From Ulota crispa (taxonomy: Eukaryota > Streptophyta > Bryopsida > Orthotrichales > Orthotrichaceae), in the NCBI GenBank assembly GCA_963920765.1, contig OY987244.1, positions 17,836,358 through 17,900,357 on the forward strand: a stretch of DNA of 64,000 bases. The letters run 5' to 3'. Positions 7,188-54,105 of this stretch are shown here, in pieces; the first letter of the stretch is position 1; every line of letters begins with the position of its first letter. A model generated the notes under the pieces. The model worked only from the letters and a program-made list of their open reading frames with translations, was not told the DNA's origin and ran no database searches. A program made the translations under genes and the position numbers.

Positions 7188-8722
7188 TTAACCCCTAAAG
7201 GACCACTTGTCCCTATGGGGGACAAATAGGATTTTGGGCATGTACTTATGCTCGGGGAGGTCACTCTCCAATTTTTAGTAAACTATGTGAGATAAAAATA
7301 GGGTCAATTTCATTCATTGGAGGTAAACTTTATATTTATATTAGAAATACCATAGCACCAAAAATATGTCTACTACTTCATTATATGTAAAATAGGGTGG
7401 TGAATAATGCCTTCGTTTTAGAATTTCTTAGAAAAAAAAAGGGTAGGAAACATAGGATCCTCTAGAAAGTGTTTAGTAGGATAAGTTTGATTATTATTGT
7501 TTGACAAGTTTTAATGAAAAATTAAGTATGTTATGTCCAAGTTTTGAAAAGAATGGAGGGAAATTTGGTCAAAATTACTTTGACTACTAGGTTGGAGCAT
7601 GCAAGCTTGTGTGTGATGTGGAATTGCGATAGGTTCTTTGCTTAGGCTTTTGTGTGGTGGGGGAGTGTAATTAATTGTTTGCATAAAATTGTGCGTAGTG
7701 TGGGAGTGATTGGTTGATTGTTTTAGCTTCATGTTTCTTGCTACTTTTTCTCATTCAAAGGTGCTTTTTGTAATTCAAATGCTTGTAAGGGCCAAAGTCA
7801 ATTATAAATCCATTATATACACATAATTTTTTCTTAAGGTACTTTTATGTTGGTAAATAAAATAGGGTTTGAAAAATTATGTCATATAACCATTTAGAAA
7901 TAAGCATAGGGTACCCTAAAATACATTAAAGTAGCTTTTTATCTAAAGAAAGGGAGGAAAAATTTACTTTAAAAAATCTAAATACCCCCCATTTAATTAC
8001 CCCATTATTGTAGGTGGTATCCAATTGTAAAAGGGTGTGACCCCCTAAGTACTTATGGCTAAACTACTTTGTGTAATTTTTGGAAACTTTTATGGAAGAT
8101 GGGGAATTCAAAGATTTGCGTGGGCATCTATTTTTTTCTTCATTTTGACATTTTTTGAATTAGTTAAAAATGAATTTATGAGAAATTTAGTTCAACAAGC
8201 AGCCCAAAAACTTCTTTAAAATTTGCATTTTTTTAAACTAAAAATTTGAGGATAGTTCTTTAGACTTATGTATATGTGGGAAGCTTTGAATTATTCAATT
8301 CTAATTGATGAGATAAAAGTTATGAGAAGTTTTAGTTTGAGTGTAGGCATAGTTTTGAGATTTTCCACACCTACCCAAAAACTAAAACTTCTCATAACTT
8401 TTATCTCATCAATTAGAATTGAATAATTCAAAGCTTCCCACATATACATAAGTCTAAAGAACTATCCTCAAATTTTTATTTTAAAAAATGCAATTTTTAA
8501 AGAAGCTTTTGGGCTGCTTGCAGAAACAAAAATTCTCATAAATTTATTTTTAACTTCTTCTATAAATGTCGGAATGAGGAAAAAAGTAGATGCCCACACA
8601 GATCTTTAAATTCCCCATCTTCCATAAAAATTTCAAAAAATTATACAAAGTAGATTAGCCATAAGTACATGCCCGAAATCCCATTTATCCCCCATAGGGA
8701 CACTTGATCCTTTAGAGGTTAA
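7188..8722. mobile_element. TTAA-flanked foldback element with nested insertion
   Basis: TTAA-CCCCTAAAGGACCACTTG on the left matches the reverse complement of the right end (CAAGTGATCCTTTAGAGG-TTAA upstream strand order reversed), with the matching continuing for over 300 bp into each arm. Arms meet near 8360. The core is 7192-8718. The left arm is interrupted by a separate insertion at 7251-8049. Eight elements in the window share TTAA flanks and CCC-starting ends. TTAA target sites with C-rich tips are characteristic of the piggyBac superfamily, so that assignment is plausible but unproven. There is no transposase frame. Confidence 0.7.
7251..8049. mobile_element. hAT-like non-autonomous insertion nested in the left arm
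   Basis: The ends CTCGGGGAGGTCAC and (reverse complement) CTTAGGGGGTCAC form a short TIR. The insertion is flanked by the 8-bp direct repeat TACTTATG at 7243-7250 and 8050-8057; the repeat extends to 9 bp if one end base is assigned to it. The right arm of the host palindrome carries the uninterrupted site near 8660. Eight bases is the hAT target length and nine would be MULE-like. The interior is AT-rich and non-coding. Confidence 0.7.
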
Positions 8723-9423
8723 TCAGTCACACATGATCTAAATATTTAAATTGGCCACATTTTGTGATAAAATTACTACTGCAGAATTTGCTAGTTGCAA
8801 GGATATTTTTGTTGCTTCCGGTAATTCAACGGATACCTAAACTCGTACGAAATATTAAAAAAAAAATTGGTGTGACCACATATACGTAGAGCTTGTAAAG
8901 ATACTATTGAGATGTTGATGTCAAACCGCCAAGTATTTGTTGGTATGACCACTTGACCAGGACTCGAGGGTGAGAGCTTTTTAGGGATTTCCGACAGGCA
9001 CTTGACCCTCTCCCAGATGGTGACTTCCGTACCAGTTTCAAGATTTCATCCGTCAAATTCATCCATGATATTCCATCCTACAGCTCCAGCCAAGTTTTTA
9101 CCACCAACAGTATACGAGCTGCTGGGAGCCTGGAACCAATGCAACTGGGGCTACAATAAATAGTGCATTCAGGTTGCCCCACACTCATTTCTCTACATTT
9201 ATACTGTATAAATATTTAATGATATCACAATAGTTTTCATCAATGAACAAATTGTAATGACAGTAAGGGCTTGGTAACAACAACAACTCTATAAAAAAAA
9301 GTAAACTAGTGTCATTCAATCCAAAAATCTTATGAAGTCCTAATATTTAAAGAGTCGCATATATTTCCAAGTGGTCAAGCATTGAGTCATGAGGTAACTT
9401 TTTAGGGTAAGATGACCTATTTG
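8723..9423. repeat. Intergenic DNA with a dispersed repeat (9142-9415)
   Basis: No gene is seen. From about 9142 to 9415 the sequence resembles 29995-30250 in the same orientation. Shared features are a TTGCCCCA block, a TATAAATATTTA block, CAATGAACAAA, GGCAACAACAA-like and AGTCATGAGGTAACTTT. It is an unclassified dispersed repeat of about 260 bp. Confidence 0.5.
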
Positions 9424-10361
9424 TTAACCCGTAAAGGATCAAGCCCTTTTTTTGGCCAAAATCACTAAAAATTACCACTTCTAAGAGGTTTAAAAAAAAT
9501 GTGTTTCATGTTTTGATTTTGGGAAATCCAACCGTAGGATCTTGCCTCGGATTGGAAGAGGTACTTGTGGGAAAAAAATCAGCTCGTTCCAAATGGAGAG
9601 GAGTGAGATGTTTACATCTAAAATGAAAAAAAAAAGTTTTTTCCATGCTGCCCAAAAATTTTAGAAGCCTTTGACCACTCTTATAACAAAAAAACTGCTC
9701 TACCCAAAGTTGCACTTTATTTTTTCCATGTAGGAGATCAAGTTAGGAATGTGTGGGAGAATTTTCAAATTGACTGGAACTACACAACACATGGGAAAAA
9801 ATAGTAAGTAAAAAGAAGTAGAGAATGAGTCAAATCACTAAATTGTTCAAAATTTAATTATGGAAATGAAAAATGCAAATTCCAACAGTGATAATGTTGA
9901 GATAAACAACCTACTTCATTTGATTAAATTTTTCTTCCAAAATATTGAAAATTAAGTAAAATAAAGAACTTCAAAGTTTATTTTAGAGTAGAGATTCCAT
10001 AACTACTTGCAAACAAAACTCCTCATAACTTTCATGTCATTGATTGAAATTGAATGATTCAAAGCTTCTTGTGAATAAAAATATCTAAAGAACCAATTTC
10101 AAATTTCTATTTTTTTAAAAATGAATTTTTATAGAAGTTTTTGGGCTGCCCGGACGGGTAGTCCTCCCCAAATTTTCATGAATTCATGCATAACTTCTTT
10201 GTCAAATGTTGGAATGAAGAAAAAAGTAGATGCCCACATAGATCTTTGAATTCCCTATCTTCAATAAAAGTTTCAGAAAATCACACAAAGTAGTCTAACC
10301 ATAGGTACATGCCCAAAGTCCAACCGGTCCCCCGAAGGAACAATGATCCTTTAGGAGTTAA
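9424..10361. mobile_element. TTAA-flanked element, 930-bp core, orientation 1
   Basis: The ends are TTAA-CCCGTAAAGGATCAAG and the inverse of CAATGATCCTTTAGGAG-TTAA. The core is 9428-10357. Interior blocks such as GTAAGTAAAAAGAAGTAGAG and AACTTCAAAGTTTATTTTAG recur inverted in the neighbouring element at 10671-11591. The part near 10000-10330 matches the arms of the element at 7188. I see no coding capacity. Confidence 0.7.
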
Positions 10362-10670
10362 GGCAACGCAAATGCACTACTTAGTGTACCTAATATCACT
10401 GCCCTCATTTGTAGTCCCATGATTTATTTATTTATTGCTAAAAACTGTTACATAGAAACGTAAAAAATACAGGGTAAAATTGGAACTTTTTATTTCATTT
10501 AGGCTATTTAGCAGTAGTTTTATACCACAAAAATAAAGGACTGGTAAAATCGTGAAAAATCGTACCGATGACTTTTGCAAACTTTAAGGACGTTTAGCAA
10601 TGTTATAAGCAAAAAAAATTTGCTAGACAAGTTTTTGCCACGATCTTACCTCCTTTATACACTAACTATC

Positions 10671-11591
10671 TTAACTCCTAAAGGACCAGATCCCATTTTC
10701 AGAAACATAGCAATTTTGGGCACGTACCTGTGATTGGAGCTTTTTATATTTTAGGCTGAAATTTTAATATAATGTAGGGATGAGGTTTATCTTTCATATG
10801 CATTAAATTTCATGACATTTGGAATTATGAATACAAAGTTATGGTCTAATATGTTGTTTTTTACGTTCGTTGGGCAGCCTAGGTAGATTTTTAAAAATTG
10901 CTCTTTTCATAAACAAAAATTTCAAATGGGTTTAGGAGATTTATGTGAATATAGGAAGCTTTGAATCATTCCATTTGGATCAACGAGATGAAAGTTATGA
11001 GGATTTTTTGTTTGCGGTCAATTATGGATCCTCTATTCCAAAATAAACTTTGAAGTCCTTTATTTTGCTCAATTTTCAACATTTTGGAAAAAGAACAAAA
11101 CCAAAGGATGAATATTGTTTATGAAAACATTATGACCATTGGGATTGGCATTTTTCATTTCCATAATTAAATTCTTAACAATTTTGTGTTTTGAATCATT
11201 CTCTACTTCTTTTTACTTACTAATTTTTTTCTATATTTTATACAACTTTAAATGATTTGAAACTTTTTTGACATGTACTTTACTTAGGTGGAATAAGGAA
11301 TTTAGAGAAGCACCACCCACATGGCATTTTTTCCTTAGGAATTTTACCTTCTGAAGGGTAGCTGCTTGGTTTTTTACAAGACATTTTTGAATATTCAAAC
11401 CATACTAACTTCCAATCCACGCAGTGGAAAACTCTGAATTTTTTTCCACATCTTTTGAAATTATTCTTCTACAAGATCCTACGGTCACATATGCATAAAA
11501 TTGTTTTTGTTTTCAAATTTGGTTGATGCTCTAAAAATGGCAATTTTGAAGAGTTTTTGGTGAAAACTTTGCTTGGTCCTTTAGGGGTTAA
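10671..11591. mobile_element. TTAA-flanked element, 913-bp core, opposite orientation
   Basis: The ends are TTAA-CTCCTAAAGGACCAG and CTTGGTCCTTTAGGGG-TTAA. The core is 10675-11587. It is a diverged, inverted copy of 9424-10361, separated from it by about 310 bp that carries no recognised feature. No open frame of interest is present. Confidence 0.7.
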
Positions 11592-11976
11592 GAGTAAAAA
11601 CAGTGGATGAAAAAATGGAGGAAACTGCCAAATCACTCTCTAAATAACACAAGGTTCACCAAATTTAGAATGAGTTGTATTAATATTAGTAGGATTTATG
11701 GATGAACATGTACACATAGATGAATCTATCCATTTTTTTCTCCTTTGCTTGCGTTATTCAACCAATGAAAAAACAAAAAAACGTTCCATTGTCTGTAGGG
11801 GTGTAAATTATTCATGAGAATTTCATTTCGCACCATAATCCAACAGCAATGATCCCAAATAAAATTATAATATTTATTGTAAGTGCCCTAGAAACGTTTC
11901 TAATCGCCCTAGACAATGTTTTGGAAAAATTGGATATATCAACACATAGTCAACTTGTTGAAACAACCAAAAAGAA

Positions 11977-11978
<2 letters not shown>
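11592..11978. other. AT-rich spacer
   Basis: I see no gene or repeat here. Confidence 0.4.

Positions 11979-12034
<56 letters not shown>
11979..12034. repeat. (AT)28 microsatellite
   Basis: An uninterrupted run of alternating A and T of about 56 bases abuts the left end of the foldback element at 12032. The overlapping Ile/Tyr-rich open frames it creates are artefacts. Confidence 0.95.
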
Positions 12035-12036
<2 letters not shown>

Positions 12037-12397
12037 TCCTTTTTGACTATTCTATCACACTTATCAATATCTATAATATTAAAGTAGGTGTGAATCATGG
12101 GAAGAACATCAATAATTTGAAAATACTACTCAACTTAATAGTTGCTACTTTAAATTTGTTTTTTAGCTTTGGATCCCACTCATAGTATCAAATAAAAATC
12201 CAAATTTTGCTTAATTTAATTTATAATATTTTTAATTGATACAATGAGCAAGATTAGGAGTTAAAAAAAATTACAACTTCTATTTCAAGTTGAATTTTAG
12301 AATTAGTGAAGTTTTGCTTGTGGTTCACACCTACTTTAATATTGTGAATATTGGCCATATATAGTAGGTGTGGTAGAATAGTCAGAAAGGGGTGATA
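12032..12397. mobile_element. Foldback MITE next to the AT microsatellite
   Basis: TATCATCCTTTTTGACTATT on the left pairs with the right end, AATAGTCAGAAAGGGGTGATA. A second paired block is TAATATTAAAGTAGGTGTGAA and its inverse near 12325. The arms are imperfect and the right one has about 20 extra bases. The family is unassigned. The outer GGGGTGATACAT resembles termini of the MULE-like foldbacks, so the two may be related. Confidence 0.55.
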
Positions 12398-13020
12398 CAT
12401 GTATCCATTCCCAAAAATTGTTGGAATTTGAAACATCTTGCTCAAATACCTGCTAAATTTGGGGGAAAAAACTAATCATAATACATGAGAATATAAAGAT
12501 AGGGAAACACTTGATACATGCTTGTGAAAAATTGATTGAAACCGAGAAGAAATGCCAAATTTTAGCTGACAAAGCTAAAATTCCATCCCAAACTTTTAGG
12601 ACTCTCAAAAGTTCAAATTTATCCATTGGTGTTTTTACATATGTTATGGCTGTTGAAATGTAAACAAATAATTGATGGAAGTTTGCTAAGATTAGCTACA
12701 TTTGGGAACTCGGGCTTCCACGTCATCATGGATAGAATGTTCAGTTGCATTGCATACAGAGACTGTCTGTGGAATCAAACACTCATGTGGGCCATGTGCT
12801 TGAAACAGCCGGATTAAAGTAGATTCTGTGAGGACTTGCGAAAGTTGGGGGTGCTTAAAAAAGTGTTTCTTTTAAACCTTACGGTTGCTTTACAGTAGGT
12901 TTTGGGACTTGTGCATTAGAGTTAATTGGGAGTTGAACTTTTTGCATCCTCCTCCATTTTTTCAAGAATCAAGTGCGAACTTCTATGTTGGTCCCAAAAA
13001 CAACAAACAGTTCGTTATTG
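12398..13020. other. Intergenic DNA
   Basis: A 63-codon open frame (12626-12817) has no recognisable motif and no splice context. I see no other feature. Confidence 0.35.
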
Positions 13021-13431
13021 GGAATTGATATGTGTACCACACCCTTTCATTTGCTGTACCACACCCTGGGGTAAATTTTAGATTTTTACCATCAGAAAAC
13101 TGAATTTGAGAATTTGAAAATCAAATTTGGATTTAGAAACCGTGATTTAGTCTAAAACCACAAAAAAAAGTTGCAATTCAACAACATCCAATGAAAAAGC
13201 TTATCTTTTTTGCAAACAAAAGTAAAAGTAACACTTTCCTCCCTAGCTAAACTTTTTCATTGGGTGTTGTTGAATTGCAACTTTTTTTTATAGTTCTAAA
13301 CTAAATCATGGTCTCTAAGTCCAAATCTGAATTTCAAATTCTCAAATTCAACTTTTTGATGGTAGAAATCTAAAATGTACTATGAGGTGTGGTATAGTAG
13401 TTGAAAGAGTTTGGTACACATATCAATTCTC
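13021..13431. mobile_element. MULE-like foldback MITE, copy B, with 9-bp target duplication
   Basis: The ends are GGAATTGATATGTGTACC and GGTACACATATCAATTC. Interior arms match copies A, C and D. Flanks are TTCGTTATT on the left and TTTGTTATT on the right, eight of nine bases identical. That is the 9-bp duplication expected for Mutator-like transposition. Confidence 0.7.
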
Positions 13432-16089
13432 TTTGTTATTGCAAACTTATTTTTAATTTTCAAGTTTTATGATTCTAAAGTAGTACGGAAGTTTGGTTCA
13501 AGTATGTTGACCCAAGATGAAAAAGTTTAAATGTTCCATGGAGGAGGATGCCAAGGAAAAGTTAGATGTCAACCACCAAAATATCACATTTTGAAGTTTT
13601 TGAAATTGAATTTAGATTTGGAGACTTTGATTTTGATGATAGTTGCATAAGGACATAAATTGACCAATTCCAATTTCAAATATAAGGGCAAATTCTCATT
13701 TTTTCTTCTTGTTCATTAAAAAGTTGGAGCCTTTCCACCTATTGTAAAGAAGGGGGTTCTTGAAAAAGATGGAGGTAGGCCATAGGCATTAAGAGCCTCA
13801 GCTCATGATTAACTCTAAAACTTGCTAGATTTTGGAGCGCAAGCTTGTCTCAATCTACGCCTACTAGATTTTGGAAATCAACTTCAAATCCTTTACATCC
13901 TAAATACAAAGTAAACTTTGAAAATATATTAAAATTAGTGGGTTGTTTGAAAGGTAACATTTGACACAATTCAAACTTAACAAATCGATTTCACCTTGAA
14001 ATGAAAGGTCAATTTTGAAGTTTTGAGGTTGATGTTAAAGCTAGCATAAAATAGTCATTCTAACACAACGGTGCTTGGTTAGCATCAACACTTTGGGTTA
14101 GTAAAAAGTGTTGATCTTATCCAAGCATTGATCATAAACAAACACTCCATTTGTATTACTTTCCCTAGTTATAAGGGTAGCAATTTTGGAGGTGCTTTTC
14201 CACCCATGTTTTTGGTACACTAACCAAGCGCCTTTCTAACTAAGGAGTCAAAATGGGAATTGATGAAATGAAAACATTGACCATATGCAAGCACTTGACC
14301 TTAACCAAGCTCATAATACATACTTTTGAGCAAAAAGGGAGTGAAGTTGTGAGCTTATCCAATTGTTGTTTTTACAAATATTGACTCTAACCAAACACCA
14401 CTGCATCAAATAATAACTTTTGATACTTTACACAACAACATGGAACTAGCCCTATTTCGCTTCCACAATCCTCTTCTTTCAATTTTTCAAACCTTGGGAT
14501 TAATATAGCCTCAACATTTTGCCCTCCATTTCTTTACTATAAGAGAAAAGGCTTTTATTCTAATTGTCTTCTGATTAATACTTGAAGTTATTATATGGCA
14601 CAACATGGGCTAGAATTTTGGTTTAAACGGCCCTAAGATTGGTGGCTTGGATTCTTGAGTGCAAATCGACCCTTAATTCCTTGAAGACCTTGAACCTTAT
14701 GCATATTTTGAACACTGAACAAATGTAAGCAAGTTCCATGGTTGTCGGAATTTTATTTATTTACTTCTCCGATGTTATTAGATTTTTGTGTTGATTTTTA
14801 CCATTTATGAAAAATGTCCAAACAAAAGAAAGACTTTAACAATATTCAATGTATCAATTACTACACGTATGTTTCACTTCGTCAGTAAAGTTGTCCCCTG
14901 AGACCACTTTCGTCATTGCATACACTTAGGTCCATTGGACTATATCAAAAAAGAATACCATAAACTACAATTTGAAGAACATTTCAATGCTTGCTGATAA
15001 ATTCAATAAAATAAAATGTATGCTGTTACAAATGGTCAAGACAGAAACATATGGGACATATAGGTTTGAAAAGAGGAGCTGCAAGCCGCTTTTCAATTAT
15101 TGCGCAGTTGAAGGGCCGACATCTTTGAATGTGAATAAAACCATCAGTTGTGTGAAATTTGTCCAAAATCTGGAAACCCAAGAATTTCTCTTACACAAAT
15201 GGTGAATACATTCTTAGTAATTCTAACTCCAAGTTCATATTTTTTGCAAAATTTCCCACCAATTGCAAATTCAAAATGTAAAATCAAGACTCATATTGTG
15301 GTAGATGAGTCCAAAAGTAGACAAATCTTCTCATTCATTGATCAAATAATTTGCAATAAAGAACCTAAACTATGGGTACACACGTATATACAGTATATAA
15401 ACATGTGTGTATATATGTGTATGTAGACTATATATATAAGTATATTGCAATGCTTTGATACGTGTGACTTTTCTATGTTAGTTTATACCCACTCTTTCCC
15501 TACCCTTTCCTCTCCCTCCCCCTTCCCTCCCAATGCTATAAGAGTTTCAAACTTATAATGCTTTCAAATATTGAATTTGAAAATCTAATGAATTTACACA
15601 ACTCCAATGATTTTTCACCCTATAATTGGGCGCCTTTTCCTCTCCCTTTGTGACGTTTCATCCTCCCTTTTGATGCCTTTTCTTCTTCTTTTCTCTTTTT
15701 CTATTATAACTTGTGGTGTTAATAGAGAATTATGGCATGACACTCATGATATCATGAGACAAACATCATAATATGAGACAGACACACCGGGCTTTATAGT
15801 ATAGATGTATATGTATAATTCATGTCACTTTTTGTATCATAAATTCCATTTTTGGAGGGTGCATCAATTGAATCTTAGGTCTACATATATCACTCTTGTT
15901 GCCTCCTGCAACCTCTCTACGGACGGATCACCGTGGCTTGCCCTGCTTATAGCAGTCTACAGTGTTTTGCACATGAACACCACTAGTATTGCTTCAAAAA
16001 ATTGGAAAAGTCAATAGTGCATGGTGCCCTCATGAAAATTGTAAGAAGGGCAGCTTGCACAGGTAAAAATCAACGTTGTATATGATTGC
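13432..16089. other. 2.7 kb of AT-rich intergenic DNA
   Basis: I find no supportable gene. Local features are a TA/GT-rich microsatellite-like stretch at 15370-15445 and C/T-rich DNA at 15485-15700. A slightly GC-richer 100 bp near 15895-15990 is open in one frame but has no recognisable product. Confidence 0.4.
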
Positions 16090-20835: not shown

Positions 20836-21751
20836 TTAACCCTTTAAGGACCACGCGACCATATTTTGGTCGCTAGGAGTGGTTTTTGGCCTGTAGGTTG
20901 AAATTGCTCAAAAATTTGGAATTTGGTCTTAAAGAACACATGTGATCACAAGAATCTTGTGTCAATCTAAAAAAATAACAATGCAATTGGGTATGTGAGT
21001 TGACAAATAATGATGTTTATACATGATGGCTTCAAAATATGTATCCATTTTTTTGTCAAAGATGGATCAAAGCAACAACACAATACATCAAACATCCAAG
21101 AAGAATGTCAAATTTCAATTGCACATTTCTAAAAAAAATTCAAGCTGCGTAAGAATATGCTTGTATTGTTTTCATATATGGTAGTAGTATAAATGTAGTA
21201 TTTGAAGATCTACTGAAATAGTGTTGTCATTTTGGCTTTAAAATTTGTCATCTTACATTTAAGGCCAATTCTTGATTGTTTTCACCAATCAGATTTTCCA
21301 TAACAATTATCAGACTTCTTGTAGAATTGTTTTAGGGTAGCAAAGAAAATGGGATTTTTGACCCTTTTTGTCCACTTAGCTATACTTTGTGATTGCTATT
21401 TTTGTCTATTTTGTGTGAAACTAGTATTGTTGGAAAGGTGGGAAACCTTCCTTTCTAGAAATGTAAGGTACTTTTCAATCAAAGCTTGCATGAAGCACTA
21501 ACATTCAAAACCACACAAGCATGAAACACTAAAGATTTTCAACATACGGCTTGCTCAATCATTATAATGTTTCACCTCCAACGATAGATCTAGCTAAAAT
21601 TTTGGTGCTTTAAAGTGAACAAGGTGTACTTCTCATTTGTACGGTTAGATGACTAAAAATGGATCCATATTTGAGTTAGTTACACATCTAAGCTTACAGC
21701 CCCTGTTTTTAGTGGATTTTGTGAAAATGGGTGTGGTCCTTGAAGGGTTGA
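20836..21751. mobile_element. TTAA-flanked element, 908-bp core
   Basis: The left end is TTAA-CCCTTTAAGGACCACG. The right end is GTGGTCCTTGAAGGG followed by TTGA, one base off the expected TTAA. The core is 20840-21747. It is AT-rich and non-coding, and it sits about 145 bp from the next family member. Confidence 0.65.
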
Positions 21752-21896: not shown

Positions 21897-22707
21897 TTAA
21901 CCCTTGAGTGCCCAAGGTTTCCAAATAAGACAGGTATGGGTGATTGCAAGAAGCACTTCACAATTTTGTCTCAAACACCAATAGCACTCGTAGTACTAGT
22001 AGTACTACCAAGCTTTTGGAATAATTTTTTTTAAATAAAATAAAATATGGACAATTTGTAAAGCACTTAAAATAGCATACTCATGAAAATTGAGACCTAT
22101 AAATTTTTTATTCTAAAAGTTAGGCGCAAAACAAAGTCACCAACAAAAAGTCAATTTCTTTCTTTCTTTTTAGAAAATAGTGAAATTGTTCAAAAAAATA
22201 AAATAAAAATTGGCCATTTGAGAACCTATTAAACACATTGACATGGTACAATTGCTTTGCTGAGGAACTTCTTTGTATTTTGCCAACAAAGGGGGATAGG
22301 ATGCCCACTTTGAGACAATGTAGATGCCATGGAATTTATAATTTTGCAAAACCCTTCTACAAATGCGTGTAAGCATGCTCCATAAACAACATCCTTGATT
22401 TGTAACCCTAGAAAAGCTTTTTTGGACCCAAAATAGTACTAAAAACCTCCGTAATGGCCAAGGTACACACCTATTTGGGGGCTGTTTAAAAATAGTAAAA
22501 TAATTTAAAAAAAATTGCAAAAATTACTAAAGGTTTGTTACTATGATATGTACCCTCTTCTAAAATTTCAGCTCAAAAGAACTTGCTGTGCAAAAGTTAC
22601 AAGCCAAAAAGCACTTGTGAGGTGAAGGGGACAAAAAATAGTACAAGCGTTTCTTGCAATCACCTGTATTGAGACCATTTTGATTTGCTTGGGCACTTAG
22701 GGGTTAA
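21897..22707. mobile_element. TTAA-flanked element, 803-bp core, TGCCCAAG subtype
   Basis: The ends are TTAA-CCCTTGAGTGCCCAAG and CTTGGGCACTTAGGGG-TTAA. The core is 21901-22703. The subterminal TGCCCAAG replaces the GGACCA of the 7-11 kb copies and recurs at 30673 and, as TGCCCAA, at 53173, defining a second subtype. Minus-strand open frames inside (22120-22520) have no recognisable product. Confidence 0.7.
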
Positions 22708-22770
22708 GGAGTTTAGATTACAAACACCTCCTACAAATAGTAAGTCACATTGCTCACACAGCTTCTCTAA

Positions 22771-23788
22771 TGTATAGTACCCTAAAGAAAGCATATGTGA
22801 TTCCTCTCATGGCTTTAAAGAAGTTTGTATAACAAACACTACAATTGGGATTTTATTCTCATGCTATTATTATCTCATCCTCATGCAATCCCAATCAAGC
22901 ATGCCATATTACAGCTACCAAAAATCAAAATCCTACTTTTGGTGAATTATTTTAATTAAAATTATTTGTTTTACATAATAATTGGTTAAAAAATAAATGT
23001 GATGAATTTTTGAGATTTGACTGCATAGATGTGTAGGAAACATTCATATCACTAGAAGAAATCTTGCAATAAACGATTGGTTCACCACAACTGTAAATGT
23101 CCTAAACAACTGTAATTGAGTTATTGTATAGTTGTTTAGGACATTGCAGTCGTTGTGAATCAGTTGTTTGGGACAACTTTTTCTTCTAGTGTATGCACAT
23201 CTTTCTTTTTAAATAACATCCTCAAAAAGTTTCAAAATTTATTCTATAGTGATTTTAATGCTAGGGTGAGCTGGACCAAATTTAGTAAAATAGATACTTC
23301 TATTTTTTAATTAGCTTTTGGCATTGTAAATAGACTCTCATGCTCAAAGATATAAACTTAGTCACAATATATGAGTCAAATAGAAAAATCTAATTACCAT
23401 AAAAAAAATTACATCTTACTAAATTTGGTCAAGTTCACCCTAGCATTAAAATCACTATAGAATAAATTTTGAAACTTTTTGAAGATGTTGGTTAAAAGGA
23501 AAGATGTGCATATGGATGTTTCCTACATATCCATGTAGTCAAATCTCAAATATTCATCACATTTGTTTTTTAATCAATTATTATGTAAAACATTAAATTT
23601 TAATTAAAATAATTCACCAAAAGTAGGATTTTGATTTTGGTAGCCGTAATTTGGTATGCTTGATTGGGATTGCATGAGGATGAGATAATGATAACATGAG
23701 AATAAAATGCCAATTGTAGTGTTTGTTATACAAACTTCTTTGAAAGCCATGAGAGGGATTACATATGCTTTTTTTAGGGTACTATACA
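22771..23788. mobile_element. Long palindromic transposon, about 1 kb
   Basis: TGTATAGTACCCTAAA on the left matches the inverse of the right end at 23777-23788, and the arms stay complementary for about 280 bp and beyond (blocks CAATCCCAATCAAGCATGCC and ATGTGTAGGAAACAT). Copies of the same family lie at 33150-33815 and, more distantly, 33821-34652. The left arm contains the nested 142-bp element at 23050. The superfamily is unassigned. Confidence 0.65.
23050..23191. mobile_element. CACTA-type MITE, 142 bp, with TAT target duplication
   Basis: The termini CACTAGAAGAAA and TTCTTCTAGTG are exact inverse over 11 bases and begin with CACTA. TAT flanks both sides (23047-23049, 23192-23194), the 3-bp duplication expected for CACTA elements. 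An internal inverted repeat carries the GTCCTAAACAACTG motif and its inverse. The opposite arm of the host palindrome holds the intact empty site near 23505. Confidence 0.85.
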
Positions 23789-23837
23789 ATATTGTACATG
23801 GGAGGCAAAAATAACCTTGCGGCAATGTTGCAGCTTT

Positions 23838-29545: not shown

Positions 29546-30672
29546 GCAGGGCACAATGAGGGGGTTTGTTCACCCTTGGCAAGAAATAGGGCTTGGATTA
29601 GGCATTGGTTCCAAAATTTACTGCTATTTATTATGTAGTTACAGGCTTGAACTAAAAGTATAAAGAGGAACATTCTTTATTTTGTTTATTTTTATCAAGT
29701 GAATCACGGTCCATTGCAAAAGAAGTTTAAATACAAAAACCTTAGCGGAAATCAGCATAATTTTAGATCTCAAATCTAGGCAAGTTCTAGTTAGTTTATT
29801 TTCTGTGTCACAAAAAACAAGTTATCTATTACTTGCCTAGATTTGAGATATGAAATGTATAAACAATGTTCATATGCGCCACATTAGGTTCATGCTCTAG
29901 ATTGGGTATGCCTATCTTAAGGAGTTTAAATTCAACCAACACATCTCATGGATGTAAAAGTGCCTTGTCATCACCAACCACCCCACAAGTATAACACCTA
30001 CACTAAATATTGCATTTAAGTTGCCCCATACCAAATTCTTGTATAAATATTTATGGTTATTACAATAATTTTTATCAATAATTATTGCAATGAACAAAAC
30101 TTGAAGGGCCTGGCAACAACAAGGACATTGCAAAAAGACAAGGTAGCATCACTCAAACCATAAACCATACGTGAAATCCTAATATCTAGAGAGTTGCATG
30201 TGCGTTTAGGTGACCAAGCATAAAGTCATGAGGTAACTTTCTAAAATGAGGTAACTTTCTAAGATGAGGGAACTCGAATGCAATATCAGGTGTAATGAAC
30301 TTGGAAAAGCAAAACTAATTTTTGTACTTGATTTAATCTAACTTCGTTTGTCTTCCATACTTGAGTTCTTTTGCTTTGCAATGTTGACATTGTCTCACTC
30401 CATACCCCCATAGTCAATTAGTCCTACCCAAATCCATGGCACCAACTCAAAGCAAGACCAAATAGTAGTGTTAAAAGCTATGTCATTTTGTTCAAATTTA
30501 CAAGGCCTTGAAGATCACAAAGTTGGTTGCCATCCAAGTTTACCAAAATCTCAATATCCAGTTGGTCGAGAGTAGGTTGGGGCTCGGCAATTCAAACTAT
30601 ATCTCGATTTTCACATCCCCATACACTGCATTTTGCTAGCAAGGATGGTAATACTTTTAAAAAGCTTTGACA
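29546..30672. repeat. Intergenic DNA with a hairpin and a dispersed repeat
   Basis: A hairpin at 29766-29850 pairs GATCTCAAATCTAGGCAAGT with its near-perfect inverse. At 29995-30250 lies the second copy of the dispersed repeat also found at 9142-9415. No gene is seen. Confidence 0.55.
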
Positions 30673-31324
30673 TTAACCCCTAAATGCCCAAGCCACCAGA
30701 TTTGGGTTGCAACAAAATTTTGAAGATGAATAAAATCTTATCAAATCACTTTTTTCAGTATTTTTTTTTCAATATAAGTTGGTTTTGAAGTCTATTTTCA
30801 ACATAAAAAATCTGATTTTGAAAATGAAAATTGATAATTTTTCTACTCAAGAATTTGTACAAGGGTATCCACTGCAATCTTGAGTTTTCTAGTGTTGGAA
30901 GATCTTGAAAATGAGCTCAAATACACTAGAGCTTGGACAAAAAATCACATTAGAAATCCATTCAAAAAAAATACAAGAGTAGATTTTGAAAGCCATAAAT
31001 TGATTAAAGTTAAGCATGTAATGACCTTAAACCTCATATTGTTTTGGTAACCAACTTTTTAGATTTGACATGTGAAATGAGGATTATAAAACTATAAGTC
31101 ACTTTTGCAGTTTTAACACCCTCATGTTCAAACATTATAATCTTTCAAACTATAAGTGATATTGTTTTATTTTCTTTTCCCATGTATTCTCCAACATGTT
31201 TAGTTTAAGTTTGTATGGTTACAATTGAAAAAAGCTTGATGAAATTTTTGAAAATGTTGGTTGATAGTTCTATTTTATGAAAATTCTAAGAAGCTCAAAT
31301 AGGGCTTGGGCATGTAGGGGTTAA
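30673..31324. mobile_element. TTAA-flanked element, 644-bp core, TGCCCAAG subtype
   Basis: The ends are TTAA-CCCCTAAATGCCCAAGCC and GGGCTTGGGCATGTAGGGG-TTAA. The core is 30677-31320. It is AT-rich and non-coding. Confidence 0.75.
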
Positions 31325-32589: not shown

Positions 32590-33014
32590 TAGTGATATGT
32601 GTACACCTGAGGTTTGATATATGCACTCCCTCAAGCACCCCCCTCCCTGCGGGATAAAGATTTGTACCATCAAAAAGTTGAATTTGAAAAATTTTGAATT
32701 TAGATTTAGACTTAGAGACCTTCATTTAGTCTAGAACCATAAAGGAGGTTACAATTGAACAACACCCAATGAGAAAGCTTAGCTAGGGGGAAAACTATTA
32801 CTTTTACCTTTGTTTGTAAAAAGAAGTTAAGGTTTTTCATTAGTTGTTCGATTGTAACTTGCTTTGTGGCTCTAGACAAAATCAAGGTCTCTAAGTCTAA
32901 ATTTGAATTCAAACTTTTCAAATTCATGTTTTTGGTAAAAATCTAAAATATACCCTGTAGGAAAGGGGGGGAGGTATGCATATATCAAACCCCAAGTGTG
33001 CACATATCAATCCC
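32590..33014. mobile_element. MULE-like foldback MITE, copy C
   Basis: The arms match copies A, B and D, with the CATCAAAAAGTTGAATTTGA block, the CAACACCCAATG block and its partial inverse. The right end, GTGTGCACATATCAAT, is well conserved; the left end is diverged. No target duplication is apparent. Confidence 0.6.
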
Positions 33015-33149
33015 CTTATAAAATCTAGCCAATTGATTATCTATAGTACCAATTAATAAAAATAGGTAGTTACCTATTTTGCAAGTCAAAGAGTTTGCTC
33101 AATATAGAGTATAGTTGACATTTTCTTGTTTTAGCATCCTAGTTTTGTA

Positions 33150-33815
33150 ATTCTTACGCAATCCTAATCAAGCATACCAAATTGTAGTTCCAAAAAACAT
33201 AAATTCACGCATAAATCCCATTTTTTTGATGAATTATTTTGTATTAAGTTCATGGCTTTACATGATAAATGATTGACAAACATTGGTGATGAGTTTTTAA
33301 GATTTAATTGCATGGGTATGTAGGAAACATCCGTATGCGCATCTTTTCTTCTTACAAACATCTTCAAAAGTTTTGAAATTCTTTCAATAGCAGTTCTAAT
33401 ATTGGGGGTGATCATGACCAAATTTAGAAAAACAAATATCTCTTTATATTTTACTAAATTTGGGTATGATCATACCACCATTAAAACCTCTATAGAAAGG
33501 ATTTTGAAACTTTCATAAGATTTTAGTTAAAAGGAAAGATATGTGTATGGATGTTTCCTACACATCCATGCAATCAAACCCCCAAAAATCATCACCACTA
33601 TTTTTTGATCAATTATTATGTAAAGCCATGAATTTCAATTAAAACAATTCACCAAAAAATAGGATTTTGATTACTAGGATATTTGGTATGCTTGATTGGG
33701 ATTGCACAAGGATCATATACAAAAAATATGAGGACAAAACATCAATTATATTATATGTTATACCAACTATTTTGAATGCAAAAAATGGACTTACGTATAC
33801 TTTCTTTAGGGTACC
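33150..33815. mobile_element. Truncated palindromic element of the 22771 family
   Basis: The right arm matches the 22771-23788 element out to the TTTAGGGTAC tip. The left arm starts internally at a CAATCCTAATCAAGCATACC block, so about 100 bp of its outer end is missing. Confidence 0.55.
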
Positions 33816-33820
33816 GTATT

Positions 33821-34652
33821 GTAGTATAGTTACGTAATGCATGTTTTGGCATTCCCAACAAGTTTGTATAACAAAAAATATATAAATGGTATTATAATCT
33901 CATATTGTCGGTATATGATTCTCATGCAATCCCAATCAACCATACCAAATTTTGGTTACTAAAAATAAAAATTCTATTTTTGGTAAATATTTTGTGTCAA
34001 AATCATGGTTGTACAAGAAAGTTGATTAAAAATGATTGGTGATGAATTTTTGAGATTTGATTGCATGGATGTGTTGGAGATCTCTGTGTGCACATCTTTC
34101 CTTCTAACAAACATTTTCAAAACATTTAAAAATGAGACTTGAATGTTGGAGTGATCATGACCACATTTAGTAAAATAAACATTTCTTTATGGTAATTAGA
34201 TTGTGCTATTTGACTCATACATTATGATTGAGCTTGTACCTTTGAGCACAATGATATGTTTATTTTGCCAAAAGTTATTCAAAAATTTGAGATAGTTATT
34301 TTACTAAATTTGGTCATGATTACACCAACAATCAAGTCTCCATTGAAGGAATTTTGAACTTTTGAAGATGTTTGTTAGAAGGAAAGATGTGCACATGGAT
34401 GTCTCCTACACATTCATGCAATCAAATCTCAAAAATTCCTCACCAATAATTTTTAATCAACTTTCTTGTACAACCATGATTTTGACACAAAATAATTTAC
34501 CAAAACTATAAATTTTATTTTTAGTAACCAAAATTTGGTATGGTTGATTGGGATTGCATGAGAATCATATATCAACAATATGAGATTATAATACCATTTT
34601 TTTATACAAACTTGTTGGAAATGCCAAAACATGCATTACTTAACTATACTAC
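33821..34652. mobile_element. 832-bp palindromic transposon
   Basis: GTAGTATAGTTACGTAATGC at the left is the inverse of the right end GCATTACTTAACTATACTAC with one mismatch. The complementarity continues for about 300 bp through TGTTTTGGCATT and CAATCCCAATCAACCATACC. It lies directly beside the truncated relative at 33150. The superfamily is undetermined. Confidence 0.65.
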
Positions 34653-45600: not shown

Positions 45601-48600
45601 CCTCTCCACTTGTATAGCATTTATCTCAATGTTTAACTCCTAAAGGACCAAGATACTCAGTTTTGGCCTCTTTTGAGGAAGTCGTATTGGGACCAATTTT
45701 AACAAAAAATATTGACCAACACAGGCTGTAGTCTTCGCTGGTTCTGTTCCCGTATAAAACTTAACCTTGTCTGAATCATACCTTTCAACGTTTTGGTCAT
45801 TTTAAAACCGTAAAAATTTGGTCATTTAGTATTATTTGGCTTGCTTCATGTAATATTCAGTTCCTGGTTCCTGACTAAACAGTGACACCTTTTTTTGCCA
45901 TGCTCTCTTTGCAGTGCCGTGGTAACGACAAATCAACAGGCTGGATTGCATTTGTACAACGTTATAATATGCCAAAGCACGTCATAGAGAAGAGAGAAAT
46001 AGTAAACAGCAAAGAGTCTGCTGAGACTGTTGTAAAGATGGCAAGTACGACACAGAGCACGGAGTTACTTAGTGATGCCAAGCAGTTGGTTGTTTATACG
46101 GGAGAGAACGCCGTCGACCATGTACCGACAGAGCATGTCCGTTGTTGTGGCCATCAGGTATTTTTACTTCTCTTGCAACACATCTGAGCTGCAATGGATT
46201 CTAAATTCAACTCATTCTATCTTTTGATTTATTGTTAAAATCTATCCATTAAATAGATACCTCTGCCCCCTACCCTTTTTTTTTCTGTAAATGGATAACA
46301 TATGAGGATTATGTGAGGATATTTATAATAAATTTGCTGCAAATCGCTGATTTGTTTATGGTTTGTGCTCGCAGATGCATCAGGAGTGTTTTCAAAATTA
46401 TCACTCTTCTCTTCTGAAAAGCCACATCGACCATACTCTCTACGAAGGTAGTGTTTTGAATACATGACAGGTTTCATGCCATTTTCAGATGCTTCATGCT
46501 GTGCTAACTTTTGATTTTAGTTGCAGGAATCTGATTAATTAAAAGATATTTGTTATTTGTACCAAATTTTGCGTTCCGTTAGTATTGAGGTTTTGTTGCA
46601 AACCTAATTCAGTTTAATGACTTTGGAATGCTTACTTGTTTGGGTTACTAGGTAAAGGTATCATTGAAATTGACAAGATAGAGTTCCTGTGCCCAATTTG
46701 CCGTCGATTGGCAAATGCACTGCTGCCTGTTGTGCATCAAGCTAGTCTGTCAAGAATGGTGCAAGCTTGCGTGAATGACGATCTGGAGAATCAACGACAG
46801 TATTGGGAGAAATTCTGGGACAAATGCAAAAGCCTGCCCGGAACCCTGGATCAGTTTGCTTCTCAAGTAAAACTTAATCACACCTTTTCCTCATCTTTTT
46901 CTTCTAATAACTGTTTTGTAACTCCCTGTTTTGGTTCACATCATTGGCTCAAGGACGCAGTGTTTTTATAGCGAAAGTTTTATTGTGAAAGTGAATGTAC
47001 TTTTTTTAAAGGAGGTGGTCTTTGTTGCAGATTCTAAATGTGAGGAGCAATTACCGGTGTTTGAAAATAGAGGAAGCAAAGGAGTTACCAATGTGCTCTG
47101 TAAGTAATCACAATCTGATGCGAGATAGACATGTTGTAATTGCAACTCTTTATGGTTATTTACCAGTATCTAGAGAGTGGTTTGTTGATTCTGTTTTGCA
47201 ATTTGTTCTCTTTTTTTCTATCCTAAGCTTTTGGAAGACTATTAGGATAAAAATATTCATGATAATTGAGTGGTTTCCCTGATACTGAGCAGCAGCAACT
47301 CTTGTTATTGACATTGTTTCATGGGGATGTTTTCAGCCTTCTCCGAATGACATTGCAGCTTTTGCAGGTACTCTGGAAAGCTTTAGCTGCAAACATTATT
47401 CATTGCGAGGTGGAGACAAGAGAGGAGCTGCAGGAGGTTTCGACAGCCTCGCACCAGCCAAGTAACCAGCGCGTGTGGGGTGGCGAAACAGGACACTGGA
47501 TTGCTATCCAGGAGCTTGGAAAGCTAGCTATGGTCTCCAACACTCTTGACAACGGTACATTTTTCTTGTCTAACATTTTGACTGCACCTTAAGGAATTTA
47601 TGCTAAAAAATGAGAACTTAAAACCACACTGCTCATAAAACCTTTTCACAACATTATAAAGAGAACCTCCCCTTTTTATGTGTCGTCTCTTCTAACACTG
47701 TCCAAAAGTTCCTGAAACACACTAGTTCTGCTGAAAAGCCTTTCATTACACTATTGATATGAGTTGTGTTTTTGCTTTTTTATTTATAGGACAAGAGATG
47801 GCGACGAAGAAAGAGAAGATGAACACCATGCTGACCAAAATCTCACAATTCACGCAAAACAGAGAACTTGCTACGCAGAATAAGGATTTGCAAAACCTTT
47901 TCACTGTGGTACACGAAGCACTCTTGAGGTTTCAGAGCTCTGTGAAGGAAACTCGGCCACTGGAAATGTTGAAGAACAACAAAGGAAAGGAGGAGGACAT
48001 CTGCCAGAAGGTGGAGGTGTTGCGGAGGCCATTTTCCAGTGGATCTGTCCCTGCAGTGCTTGGATTCAGGGACTTCGATGCTCCGCAGCAAATGGATCCT
48101 CCCCTTTGGACAAGCTCTGATCCTCCTATGCCAGGATTTTATGATGCAAGAGGGATGCCTCCAGGGATGATGCCAGTCGCTGCTGCTGAAGAGCAATGGT
48201 CAGGGAAAGATACTGACATGAAGGGAACAGACGACTGCATTCCCACACAAGCCTCCTCTTACAGAACTGAATATCTTCGCAAACTTGAGCCTATGCAAAC
48301 TGACGTGGAGTGGAGCTCCACTTTACAAGACTGTGGTTTATTTGACGCCGACCCCTTTCGACTTCTTATTGTGCTACTGAGCGTGAGTTTACAGTCCTTT
48401 TTCTTTGGCACAACTTTTGCAGAGATTGTATAATTTCTCCTCATTTGGTGTCTTTTTTTTCATGAATCAGAAGAATTTTTTGGAGTTGTGTGTTGATTAT
48501 ACCCCCTTTTTCTCTTTTTGTGTGTGCAGGCTTTTCCAGGTTGGCCTAAAGTGGAAGAAATTTTGCTCCTGGTGAAGTTTGCGTACGTGGTGGCCTTGAC

Positions 48601-51600: not shown

Positions 51601-52156
51601 TAGAATAGCCTAGACCCTAAACTACTTCAAACTCGTAGATTTTGAGAAGTGAAAATTTTCTGAGCTAAGACTACTTGAAACCCTAAACTTATAGATCTTA
51701 AGGAAAAGAACCTCCTCTGCTAAGACTACTTGATATTCTACATGAATTTTTTTTATAATCTTAACCAAAGAACTTTCTTCGAAGTTGAGCTTTTTCATAG
51801 ATTTTCAAGCACCATTCTCAATCCAAGTTGTGCATCGAACCCCACTCGTTTTTTAAAATTCTCTTGAGAGTTTTGTATTGCAACTAGAACTTTGTGTTAG
51901 TGTGGTAGTTTTTTTGAAGGATTTTGTTGTAAAGGTTTAAGATTCTGATAGTGTTGTATACTAACTTGGGATTGAGTTTCAAACCTGCCAAGTCGGTGCA
52001 AAGTTATCGCAATGTGGACATGTTTTTTGTGTGTGGCATTTTAATGCTGAATGAGAAAATGCACAGGTGAGGCGCTTGTGGTTGACAGCAGCTTTTGACT
52101 TCGACACACACATTCTACACAACTCTCGAATCTCTCCCGGAGCTTTCTGGCTCTAA
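36637..52156 (+). CDS. PRT6: PRT6-like N-recognin, E3 ubiquitin ligase (UBR family)
   Basis: Forty-five exons join in frame to 1758 residues ending in TAA. PRT6 recognises basic N-terminal residues and ubiquitinates the protein for proteasomal decay. In Arabidopsis this controls group VII ERF factors, seed oil use and low-oxygen responses. Domains: UBR box (48-116), long helical middle, a Glu/Lys/Gln-rich helix (about 903-945) just before a split RING-H2 (989-1117), and a C-terminal Cys-rich autoinhibitory region (about 1603-1758). Introns are all GT-AG and mostly 80-400 bp. Arabidopsis PRT6 is about 2006 residues, so this model is short. About 80 residues that normally precede the UBR box are missing. 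An in-frame TAG at 36598 limits upstream extension, unless the acceptor TTAG at 36600 is used and links to an unidentified upstream exon. The least certain junction is the exon 33 acceptor (47359 or 47368). Confidence 0.95.
36778..37945 (+). other. PRT6: PRT6 exons 1-15; UBR box in exons 1-4
   Basis: The UBR box shows Cys48, YRCRTC (59-64), AICVDCF (71-77), GQHREHDY (80-87), GGCCDCGD (95-102) and GFCSAH (110-115). These are the zinc ligands and acidic residues that bind a basic N-terminus. Exon 4 must start at 37901 to give the GFC; the nearer AG at 37909 would lose it. Exons: 36637-36845, 37434-37486, 37614-37680, 37901-37980, 38368-38492, 38739-38819, 39065-39130, 39345-39519, 39641-39749, 39905-39959, 40151-40273, 40629-40706, 40934-41083, 41320-41490, 41709-41759. 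Confidence 0.9.
41980..47099 (+). other. PRT6: PRT6 exons 16-32; RING-H2 in exons 28-31
   Basis: The RING is split over four exons: CALC (989-992), then about 80 residues, then CCGH (1072-1075), MHQEC (1077-1081) and CPIC (1114-1117). This supplies C-C-C-H-H-C-C-C zinc ligands, with the wide central spacing typical of UBR ligases. Exons: 41980-42062, 42242-42338, 42515-42610, 42766-42801, 43062-43124, 43228-43314, 43463-43561, 43812-43916, 44068-44201, 44389-44588, 44677-44789, 44983-45065, 45316-45511, 45915-46157, 46375-46447, 46652-46866, 47031-47099. Confidence 0.9.
45633..45672 (+). repeat. Solo TTAA-family terminus in a PRT6 intron
   Basis: TTAA-CTCCTAAAGGACCAAG in the intron between exons 28 and 29 matches the left ends of the 7-11 kb elements. 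I find no matching right end within the intron, so it is probably a truncated remnant. Confidence 0.5.
47359..52156 (+). other. PRT6: PRT6 exons 33-45; C-terminal Cys-rich region and a 16-nt microexon
   Basis: Cys pairs lie in KCKKC (1612-1616), CLVCGD (1626-1631) and CCGAEC (1634-1639). They are followed by GSGIGIFLHMHSTQLVLIRG and LYLDQHGE, as in UBR autoinhibitory domains. Exon 36 (49237-49252) is only 16 nt, encoding VQIIT plus one base, and it keeps phase. Exons: 47359-47554, 47790-48382, 48530-48715, 49237-49252, 49486-49566, 49703-49767, 49958-50041, 50372-50427, 50604-50704, 50889-50998, 51229-51282, 51402-51461, 52067-52156. The last intron is 605 bp. Confidence 0.85.
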
Positions 52157-52600
52157 GTTTCTTCTTTTTTTCTTTTGTTTTTTTTGTTACAAGCACATGT
52201 CACCGACAGATTGCCTCATTATTATGTACAACAAGGGTGTGGCTTAAGATGGCTAGAAAAAAAAACTGCCTCCTTGGCTCTTAGCCTTTTCAATCAAAAC
52301 TATTATTTTGTTCACTTGGGTGCTCTTGTCAAGTGGAGCAGCAGCAGCAGCAGCAGCGTAGTTGGGGAGGAAAAAGTACAGGAATATTGTGTTGAGAAAC
52401 AGACCCCACTTGAAGGAGAAGATGATTAGATTTTGTACAGTTTTAGTAGACTTCTGTTAGAATTCTGTACAGGACTAAAAAGAAAAACTCAATTTTGACC
52501 TTCAGATGTAGTGAGGTACATTAGCTATATTTTTAATAGGCTAGTCTGTTATCTTGAAATTGATGAAAAATAAATTAATTCCCAGTGGGAAAGAGGCTTT
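52157..52600 (+). other. PRT6 3' UTR
   Basis: This non-coding tail includes a short GCA/AGC trinucleotide run near 52337-52356 and an AATAAA at 52569-52574 that could serve as polyadenylation signal. An 84-codon open frame here (52175-52429) is in the UTR and has no recognisable motif. Confidence 0.55.
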
Positions 52601-52665
52601 CGTGAAGCCTTTGTTGAAGTGCGACATTTTGCCTGGGGTTTCTCTTGTAAATGCTATTGAAATGT

Positions 52666-53122
52666 TAAGGTAGCAGCATCCATAAGCGTTGCGTCTCCAT
52701 GCCCGTCACCTGACAGTGGCGGGGCTAATCAATGAAAAAACAAATGGTTGTGGGTGGTTGAGTGATGGTTATGTGTGGCTGAGTGATGGTTATGGGTGAT
52801 GAAGTGATGATTATGGGTGATGAAGTGATGATTATGGGTGATGAAGTGATGGTTGTGGGTGACTAGCATGAGGTTTTGAGTACCCATCTCACTATTTAAG
52901 AACTAACAAGCCTTGTGATTAGCATCTCCTACACATTGTTCTTACAATTTCAGTGATTTTGGACTTCAAAAGATCTTTGTGAACAAATGCTTGCAATTGG
53001 AACCTTGAAATTGATGCCAATATTTTTGGTTTCCATTTCCTAACAATATTTTTTCAAAATTAGGCAATTGTTTTACCTACTCTAAAACCCTTATTTCCAC
53101 GCTTATGGGTGCACCTACCTTA
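52666..53122. mobile_element. TA-flanked foldback MITE, AGGTAGC family, copy 3, with tandem array
   Basis: The core, 52668-53120, starts AGGTAGCAGCATCCATAAG and ends CTTATGGGTGCACCTACCT, with TA on each side. A tandem array at about 52744-52866 repeats GATGATTATGGGTGATGAAG-T (21 bp, about six units). The array appears to be an expansion of the internal GTGATGGTTATGGG motif seen in copy 1. Confidence 0.7.
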
Positions 53123-53172
53123 ATGACATACTTGATTGAAGCTAAATTGTTTTGTGCTAGGATGAGCTTATC

Positions 53173-54105
53173 TTAACCCCTAAGTGCCCAACATACATCT
53201 TTGATGCAATGCATCTAGGCCATTTGGATGATTCACAAGATGTGACCTTTTGAAGATAGTGGGATGCCTACTTAGAAAGTGGCTTGCAAAATTTGGGAAC
53301 AATTAATTGTGGGAGGAGAGATTATAACATTTGATCAATCAATATGTGATGGCAAACTCTCATTTTTTGGCAAGTAGTTGTTGTTAGTTGATTTCTAATT
53401 TTTTTTTGTAGGCCCCTACTTCACGTTAAGTTTTGTGAGTAATAAGATTAGACGTGAATGCACACATTTGCAAATTAGTGAAGGCCATAATTTTTTTATT
53501 GCTAAGTTTTGGGGGTTTGAAGTGATGCTACATAGAAAATGGTGATTGGCATAATTGGTAAGGGTTGACATGACAAAGGTTTGCTAGTTCACAAAAGTTG
53601 ATTCTCACCACACATTTGGCTCCAAGCATACAATTAACCACAATATTCTTGTCATCTTTGACATTGCCCAATTTTGTTGCGCCAAGATTCCCAAAAAAGT
53701 TTTGCACACTACCTTATCCTTCCTTGCGCATCTCATCTCAAGCACACAACATTCTAGAGTAACAAACCACCTCTTTGCAATGAGCAAGAGTATGCTTGAA
53801 CTCGTGTCTACCAATCTCTTGCCACCACAAAGTACACTAAGTAAGCTTGCAATGGATAGTGACCACTTGCAACTTGTAAGACAGTGTTTGCCACCCCATC
53901 CCAAACAGTGTTTTACCCAATTGAGGCTCTCCATGCACTTGTATGACATCAAGCTCACCTTGTCATTACCTCACTTACATGAATCACTTGAATGCCTTGA
54001 TAATTGTACTTCACTGCAAGATCAAAAAATAATATTTGGTGCCTCAAAGTAGCTTGCAATATTATGTAAGGACACTTTTGGTCCTCTTAGGCATTTAGGG
54101 ATTAA
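53173..54105. mobile_element. TTAA-flanked element, 925-bp core
   Basis: The ends are TTAA-CCCCTAAGTGCCCAA and CCTCTTAGGCATTTAGGGA-TTAA. The core is 53177-54101. The right end is the most diverged of the family. Opposed open frames inside (53605-54052) have no recognisable domain and overlap each other, so I do not call a gene. Confidence 0.65.

Follow-up and report, generated by a model that had tools for sequence, protein, structure and literature searches.

Which transposition system gave rise to the short TTAA-bounded elements in a 64,000-base stretch of the genome of the moss Ulota crispa (C3:17836358-17900357, called the window below; 36.9% GC, in a genome of 274.8 Mb and 157 contigs)? 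An earlier note had listed eight such units, here named by their first position in the window, and had proposed piggyBac-like elements, with a PIF/Harbinger family as the alternative. The piggyBac reading was supported by the PF13843 transposase domain, which lies in longer elements between TTAA tips shared with one of the units, and by empty sites of unit 9424 that contain a single TTAA. With a probability of about 95%, the units are non-autonomous members of the piggyBac superfamily, of the miniature inverted-repeat transposable element (MITE) type, that were mobilised by the enzyme of longer elements. Direct proof is limited to the GGACCA subtype, and the other subtypes are provisionally included because of the likeness of their tips.

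TTAA-bounded units in the window and in the genome

The eight left tips, each consisting of TTAA and a C-rich start, were all found at the positions given in the earlier note, and each has an inverse partner that ends at the right-hand coordinate of the unit (Table 1). Seven of the eight left tips start with CCC, the exception being 10671 with CTC, and three right tips start with CCT, CTC or TCC instead of CCC. Short C-rich terminal inverted repeats (CCC or similar) are thus present in all eight units. Their length is 16-22 bp in five units (5508, 9424, 10671, 30673 and 53173) and about 75 bp, at 69% identity, in 21897. Two inner-tip subtypes, GGACCA and TGCCCAAG, had been distinguished before, and both are real; the inner tips of 5508-5587 are unlike both subtypes, but its TTAA boundaries are alike. 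The term foldback, which had been applied to the whole set, fits only 7188-8722, as most of the other units have short terminal repeats.

The frequency of the tips was far above expectation. With up to five mismatches to the two tip types, 21 tips were found in the window, whereas 50 simulated windows with a similar dinucleotide composition had 2.0 on average and never more than 8. This test used tips drawn from the window itself, and the genome-wide count is the less biased one. In the genome-wide search that the earlier note had suggested, both tip types greatly exceeded their reversed controls. Allowing up to two mismatches, TTAACCCCTAAAGGACCA occurred 16,847 times in forward and 16,930 times in reverse orientation (33,777 in total), and its reversed pattern 6 times in each (12 in total). 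The corresponding numbers for TTAACCCCTAAGTGCCCAAG were 4,423 and 4,496 (8,919 in total), with no occurrence of the reversed pattern in either orientation. The two patterns differ at only three shared positions, and some sites may have been counted twice. The counts suggest that the genome holds roughly 20,000 elements with two tips each, which would make up about 7% of the genome at about 0.9 kb apiece. In the window, the eight units account for 6,786 bases, i.e., 10.6%, or about 8.2% without two nested inserts.

The target site of unit 9424 is TTAA

Unit 9424 is located within an older inverted-repeat element (9152-10388 outside 9424-10361), relatives of which are present at 29999-30297 and at the loci L007, L047, L049, L060. 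Three copies of this host repeat (L007, L060, L049) do not contain the unit. They have matching flanks and exactly one TTAA at the site. The comparison of occupied with empty sites that had been proposed was thus done on host-repeat copies within the genome, and for 9424 it showed that TTAA is the target duplication, with a length of 4 bp. A 3-bp TTA target of the Harbinger type is excluded at 9424, because the empty sites keep a single full TTAA. The duplications of MULE (8-11 bp) or hAT elements (8 bp) were likewise not found, as the duplication is 4 bp at 9424 and a 9-bp repeat in the window belongs to a nested insert. Joined sites were tested for 16 tip pairs, at least one of them false (20836 with 22707), and nine overlapping loci were left out. 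A spanning hit was found for three of the 16, namely 9424, an L006 element (two rows) and 30673 (one row).

The TTAA boundary was also supported by the ends of copies elsewhere in the genome for 10671, for 5508 and for the left side of 20836. The scored copies of each unit are the best approximately 40 among up to thousands of candidates and not random samples. For 10671-11591, 39 other long copies at 89-91% identity and two short fragments were obtained; 32 of the 39 starts and 32 of the 39 ends are at TTAAs (the query included 100 bases of flank, with the left TTAA at query positions 99-101 and the right one at 1021-1022). For 5508-5587, 39 other copies had identities of 77-89%, and by hand count 30 of the 39 starts and 27 of the 39 ends lie within one base of TTAA. 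For 20836-21751, 29 of 40 other copies (80-92%) start at the left TTAA, and on the right the last base is 21749, within the mutated site, in 24 of 40 and lies eight bases earlier in 8 of 40.

Longer elements carry a piggyBac transposase domain

The PF13843 profile yielded 120 matches in the genome (116 of 528 candidates were scored), with a best E-value of 1.3e-73 and a distribution over C1-C11. None of 14 control genomes contained a match. A stop-free stretch of 389 amino acids from L061 (P0001) matched PF13843 with an E-value of 4.1e-67. It was the one transposase compared with solved structures, and only piggyBat (9c0f, E 2.6e-24) and piggyBac (6x67, E 7.6e-20) were found. The motifs VDE, TDNFFTS and GVDIVDQ of P0001 align to IDE, CDNWFTS and GVDTLDQ of piggyBac. 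In this one copy, the positions of the catalytic aspartates, which we take to be D268, D346 and D447, with D450 conserved, could be aligned to 6x67. The L061 stretch is not intact, since the start of the domain lies in another frame. A Pfam scan of 11 open reading frames (ORFs) gave three matches to PF13843 and no other transposase above the cut-off. CQRCKCCKQKQSRICVACGTMFMCAEPC in L048 was noted by eye as a candidate C-terminal Cys-rich domain, for which the Pfam scan had no match. A scan of viral contigs with P0001 revealed no relative.

Within 1.5 kb of the transposase domain no tips were found, because the elements are longer. After extension of four loci of one lineage, a TTAA tip was present 1.6-1.8 kb past the domain in all four. 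The left end of 9424 aligns to the 3' end of all four loci from the TTAA inward, over 347-360 bases at 72-78% identity (one of the alignments starts a base earlier than TTAA). In three of the four loci the other tip is also present, and the paired TTAA-CCCCTAAAGGACC tips delimit elements of 8,530, 8,829 and 8,255 bp; for the last, a start 80 bases further out is also possible. At its right end, 9424 aligns to the 5' ends of these three loci over 191-217 bases at 77-83%. As each of its ends matches one end of the long elements, 9424 represents a shortened element in which both have been kept. The earlier note had suggested looking for longer relatives that encode a DDD/DDE transposase, and PF13843 between paired tips at three loci identifies these as piggyBac. 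The foldback unit 7188-8722 has arms of 63 bp at 89% and a self-complementary stretch of 627 bp at 88%; both of its arms match the 5' end of the transposase-bearing element C5 (2027-2205, 83-90%). A relative of it without the insert is found in L002 (562-1284).

Tip pairs were found at 9 of 13 transposase loci; among 200 simulated sequences, none reached the observed likeness at seven of these loci, and a single one did at each of the other two. Seven of the 13 loci have credible pairs, as those of C6 and L060 are distrusted. C6 (L042+L044) was rejected as a full element, because its sole 5' partner has 6 mismatches in 16 and 3413-4552 holds another copy of the transposase. The L060 pair was taken as false, because its 1229-2137 stretch resembles a copy of 20836. 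The L047 and L048 copies share 90.5% identity along 5.03 kb and differ by 417 transitions and 60 transversions (Kimura two-parameter distance 0.104). Their homology ends at TTAAs, one left end being mutated to TTCA, and their flanks are unrelated. The transposases are diverse: at a threshold of about 55% identity, 30 domain translations formed 13 groups, and their median pairwise identity was 35%.

Several of the long elements contain an additional ORF upstream of the transposase. Among the ORFs listed, a WRYLFYRQIAKLLGW-like segment is common to those in L060, L061, L047, L048 and L050, which precede the transposase frame by about 1.1-1.5 kb. The ORFs of L051 and L059 share a proline-rich start with the upstream ORF of L060. 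In Pfam scans, the upstream ORFs of L061, L060, L047, L050 and L051 matched no family above the cut-off and no Myb, and a PDB search with the L060 upstream ORF, the one searched, returned nothing. The upstream ORF may be a first exon or a second gene.

Proposed mechanism and alternative explanations

According to the mechanism that we propose, a piggyBac transposase from the longer elements (5.0-8.8 kb) at other genomic sites would recognise the CCC-starting tips, excise the element and join it into a TTAA target, with one TTAA left on each side. Shortened copies with both ends and foldbacks with the same end twice would have been moved by the same enzyme and then multiplied. We infer that this enzyme moved the units and that related enzymes act on the TGCCCAAG subtype, on 20836 and on the 80-bp family. 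The parents examined and the copies have decayed since, and the system looks dormant. The decay may have followed DNA methylation, as most substitutions in the single pair compared are transitions.

Several results weigh against this explanation. In-frame stops are present in 110 of the 120 PF13843 rows, an intact transposase was not found, and none of the ten stop-free rows spans the whole domain (the best covers 2-340 of 349). The four extended loci behind six of the stop-free rows are broken into several frames. L058, L059 and L061 yielded no tip pair, and one of the four extended GGACCA-type loci, C6, lacks a good 5' tip. For the TGCCCAAG subtype, for 20836 and for 5508, likeness to transposase-bearing elements was seen only at the tips (no separate BLAST search was made with 5508). 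The spanning rows of the L006 element and of 30673 show a changed target, as does a fourth copy of the 9424 host repeat (30100-30320), and these cases decide nothing.

A Tourist-like PIF/Harbinger family, with a 3-bp TTA/TAA target, a DDE_Tnp_4 transposase and a Myb-like helper, would be in agreement with the short terminal repeats, the AT-rich target, the plant host and also with an upstream ORF beside the transposase in several long elements. However, it is refuted for 9424 by the one full TTAA at the empty sites, and TTA on the left and TAA on the right do not form a direct repeat. The domain between the matching tips is PF13843, though the genome was not searched for PF13359, and no Myb was found in the scanned upstream ORFs (for the 8-kb elements, Pfam scans covered some of the frames). 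This alternative thus fails both at the empty sites of 9424 and for the parents that were examined, and we regard it as very improbable.

It is also conceivable, if unlikely, that only the GGACCA subtype is piggyBac and that a different TTAA-directed enzyme acts on the TGCCCAAG subtype and the 80-bp family, as no inner sequence common to TGCCCAAG elements and a transposase-bearing element was found. Yet TTAA and the C-rich start are the same in both, the PF13843 locus L049 has the tips CTCCTAAGCGCCCCAC and CCCCTAAGCACCCAGC, which are near CCCCTAAGTGCCCAAG, and the tip of the PF13843 locus L051, CCCTTTAATGACCATG, is near that of 20836. Coincidental pairing could be suspected because TTAA and CCC are common, with 394 TTAAs within the window, but tip counts of 33,777 versus 12 and 8,919 versus 0, together with copies that end at TTAAs, refute it, and chance is practically out of the question.

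The individual units and their surroundings

Table 1. Features of the window (positions in the window) and transposase-bearing loci with their tips
Position or locus	Strand	Length	Tip or flank	Description
3757..3774	-			unpaired right tip, GGACCA subtype, 3 mismatches/14
5508..5587	.	80 bp	CCCATTAACRAC	TTAA-bounded micro-element, own family, 16-bp terminal repeats
7188..8722	.			foldback element, GGACCA subtype, split by insert
7251..8048	.	798 bp	GTACTTATG at 7242-7250 and 8049-8057	nested insert in 7188-8722
9424..10361	.			non-autonomous element, GGACCA subtype
10671..11591	.		left tip CTCC	non-autonomous element, GGACCA subtype
20836..21751	.		CCCTTTAAGGACCACG	non-autonomous element, right TTAA decayed to TTGA (21748-21751)
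21897..22707	.	~83 bp		TTAA element, TGCCCAAG subtype, split by nested repeat
21937..22664	.	728 bp	begins GGGTGATTGCAAGAA	high-copy repeat of another kind inside 21897-22707
30673..31324	.			non-autonomous element, TGCCCAAG subtype, terminal repeats 22 bp at 95%
45633..45650	+			unpaired left tip, GGACCA subtype, 1 mismatch/14
53173..54105	.			older non-autonomous element, TGCCCAAG subtype
L047		5,027 bp	CCCCTCATCGCC	tip likeness 0/200 simulated; PF13843 also by Pfam scan
L049		6,010 bp	CTCCTAAGCGCC	tip likeness 0/200 simulated
L050		5,360 bp	CCCCAAAACGTC	tip likeness 1/200 simulated
L051		5,586 bp	CCCTTTAGGGAC	tip likeness 0/200 simulated

Two of the units are interrupted by other sequences (Table 1). 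The insert in 7188-8722 may be Mutator-like, judging from the 9-bp repeat that flanks it. The repeat 21937-22664 had 1,730 first-look candidates in the genome, and of 40 other scored matches 39 had identities of 89-92% and one of 73%. It is a separate repeat nested in a small TTAA element, because its copies stop short of the tips and the combination of tip and core is rare. The copies of the interior of 21897-22707 end about 40 bp inside each tip, one exact tip variant joined to the start of the 21937-22664 core was found at no genome site, and only seven genome sites have TTAACCC at a distance of 18-46 bases ahead of the core, two of them being the ends of 21897-22707 itself.

Further copies of 20836 are present in L060 (1229-2132) and at a place reaching the end of L002. 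A full-length copy of 30673-31324 with 77% identity was found in L054 (75-735). The relatives listed for 53173-54105 have 66-81% identity and mostly cover query positions 118-510 and 720-1035, short of the TTAAs.

The window also contains a second family, of true foldbacks, at 6494-6898, 13016-13433, 32593-33020 and 55717-56129, which are self-complementary at 72-84% over 391-447 bp. The tip scan of the window detected no tip of the two TTAA types there. Copies of this family also occur inside or beside piggyBac transposase loci. In addition, 22771-23789 and 33159-34626 match an 876-bp insert with 95% self-complementarity in the transposase locus L041 (5043-5917).

Other genes

In the window, a UDP-glycosyltransferase (UDPGT) match was found at 57248-58069 on the minus strand (E 1.2e-17). 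An ORF at 58167-58613 on the same strand looks like the first part of this gene and had no match in the Pfam scan. A chlorophyll a/b-binding match begins about 1.5 kb past the right end of the window. This family (PF00504) has 56 matches in the genome, and a light-harvesting cluster at C4:21391382-21771811 includes eight stop-free matches within 380 kb. When one chlorophyll a/b-binding protein was compared with the PDB, the longer multi-domain chain 9vfj was found first, followed by 8htu and 7xqp, which are presumably Physcomitrium patens structures. By this one protein the host, a land plant, resembles a moss.

Comparison with known piggyBac systems

Plant repeat pipelines of the EDTA type are built around the CACTA, hAT, Harbinger, Mutator and Mariner classes. 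Such pipelines could mislabel the TTAA elements described here, which is a warning for annotators. In passages of a moss paper that used EDTA and RepeatModeler2, 29.13% terminal inverted repeat elements are given, with CACTA as the largest share (PMC11704416). The earlier statement that piggyBac is little described in land plants is right in degree, but the superfamily has been tabulated already, as passages of two sources indicate (PMC4438587, PMC10794571): Table 2 of the former has PiggyBac among the superfamilies found in all groups studied, and the latter, a plant review, names it among the plant superfamilies. In these passages the superfamily is named for land plants, and element structure, copy number and a moss case do not appear. 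A passage of another paper places piggyBac in plants, fungi and animals (PMC10140906). PMC10619864 was rejected as a source, since it contains only the word 'piggybacking'. In the literature searched, which had partial coverage and few subscription papers, none of the papers found dealt with native piggyBac elements of mosses. The kind of element is thus already known; its scale, its diversity and the conserved upstream ORF look new.

piggyBac transposons are known mostly from animals. In plants, piggyBac is employed as a tool of animal origin, according to a passage of PMC5505980. The presence of a large and diverse native piggyBac fauna in a land plant alters this picture and offers a natural setting for studying the spread of piggyBac MITEs in a plant. 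Tentatively, and with somewhat less than even odds, the elements might represent a plant piggyBac lineage of 5-9 kb with a conserved domain around WRYLFYRQIAKLLGW upstream of the transposase in divergent lineages, an amplification of TTAA MITEs that is among the largest (about 7-10% of the genome) and an origin as a separate branch in or before the mosses, without recent arrival from animals.

The elements resemble piggyBac of Trichoplusia ni (6x67/6x68) in the TTAA target and in the DDD transposase, which aligned over chain residues 170-515. The short terminal repeats of T. ni piggyBac likewise begin with CCC. Passages of PMC10140906 give 2,472 bp and one ORF of 594 amino acids for this element, whereas the elements found here are 5.0-8.8 kb long and have a conserved upstream ORF in several lineages. 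The best match among solved structures was piggyBat (9c0f), over query residues 10-349. piggyBat is an active bat element; in contrast, no intact copy was found among the elements examined here. Non-autonomous TTAA elements with matching tips are known as piggyBac-type MITEs of insects, and the host in the present case is a plant. To our knowledge, the number of tips in this genome exceeds that of any piggyBac MITE case.

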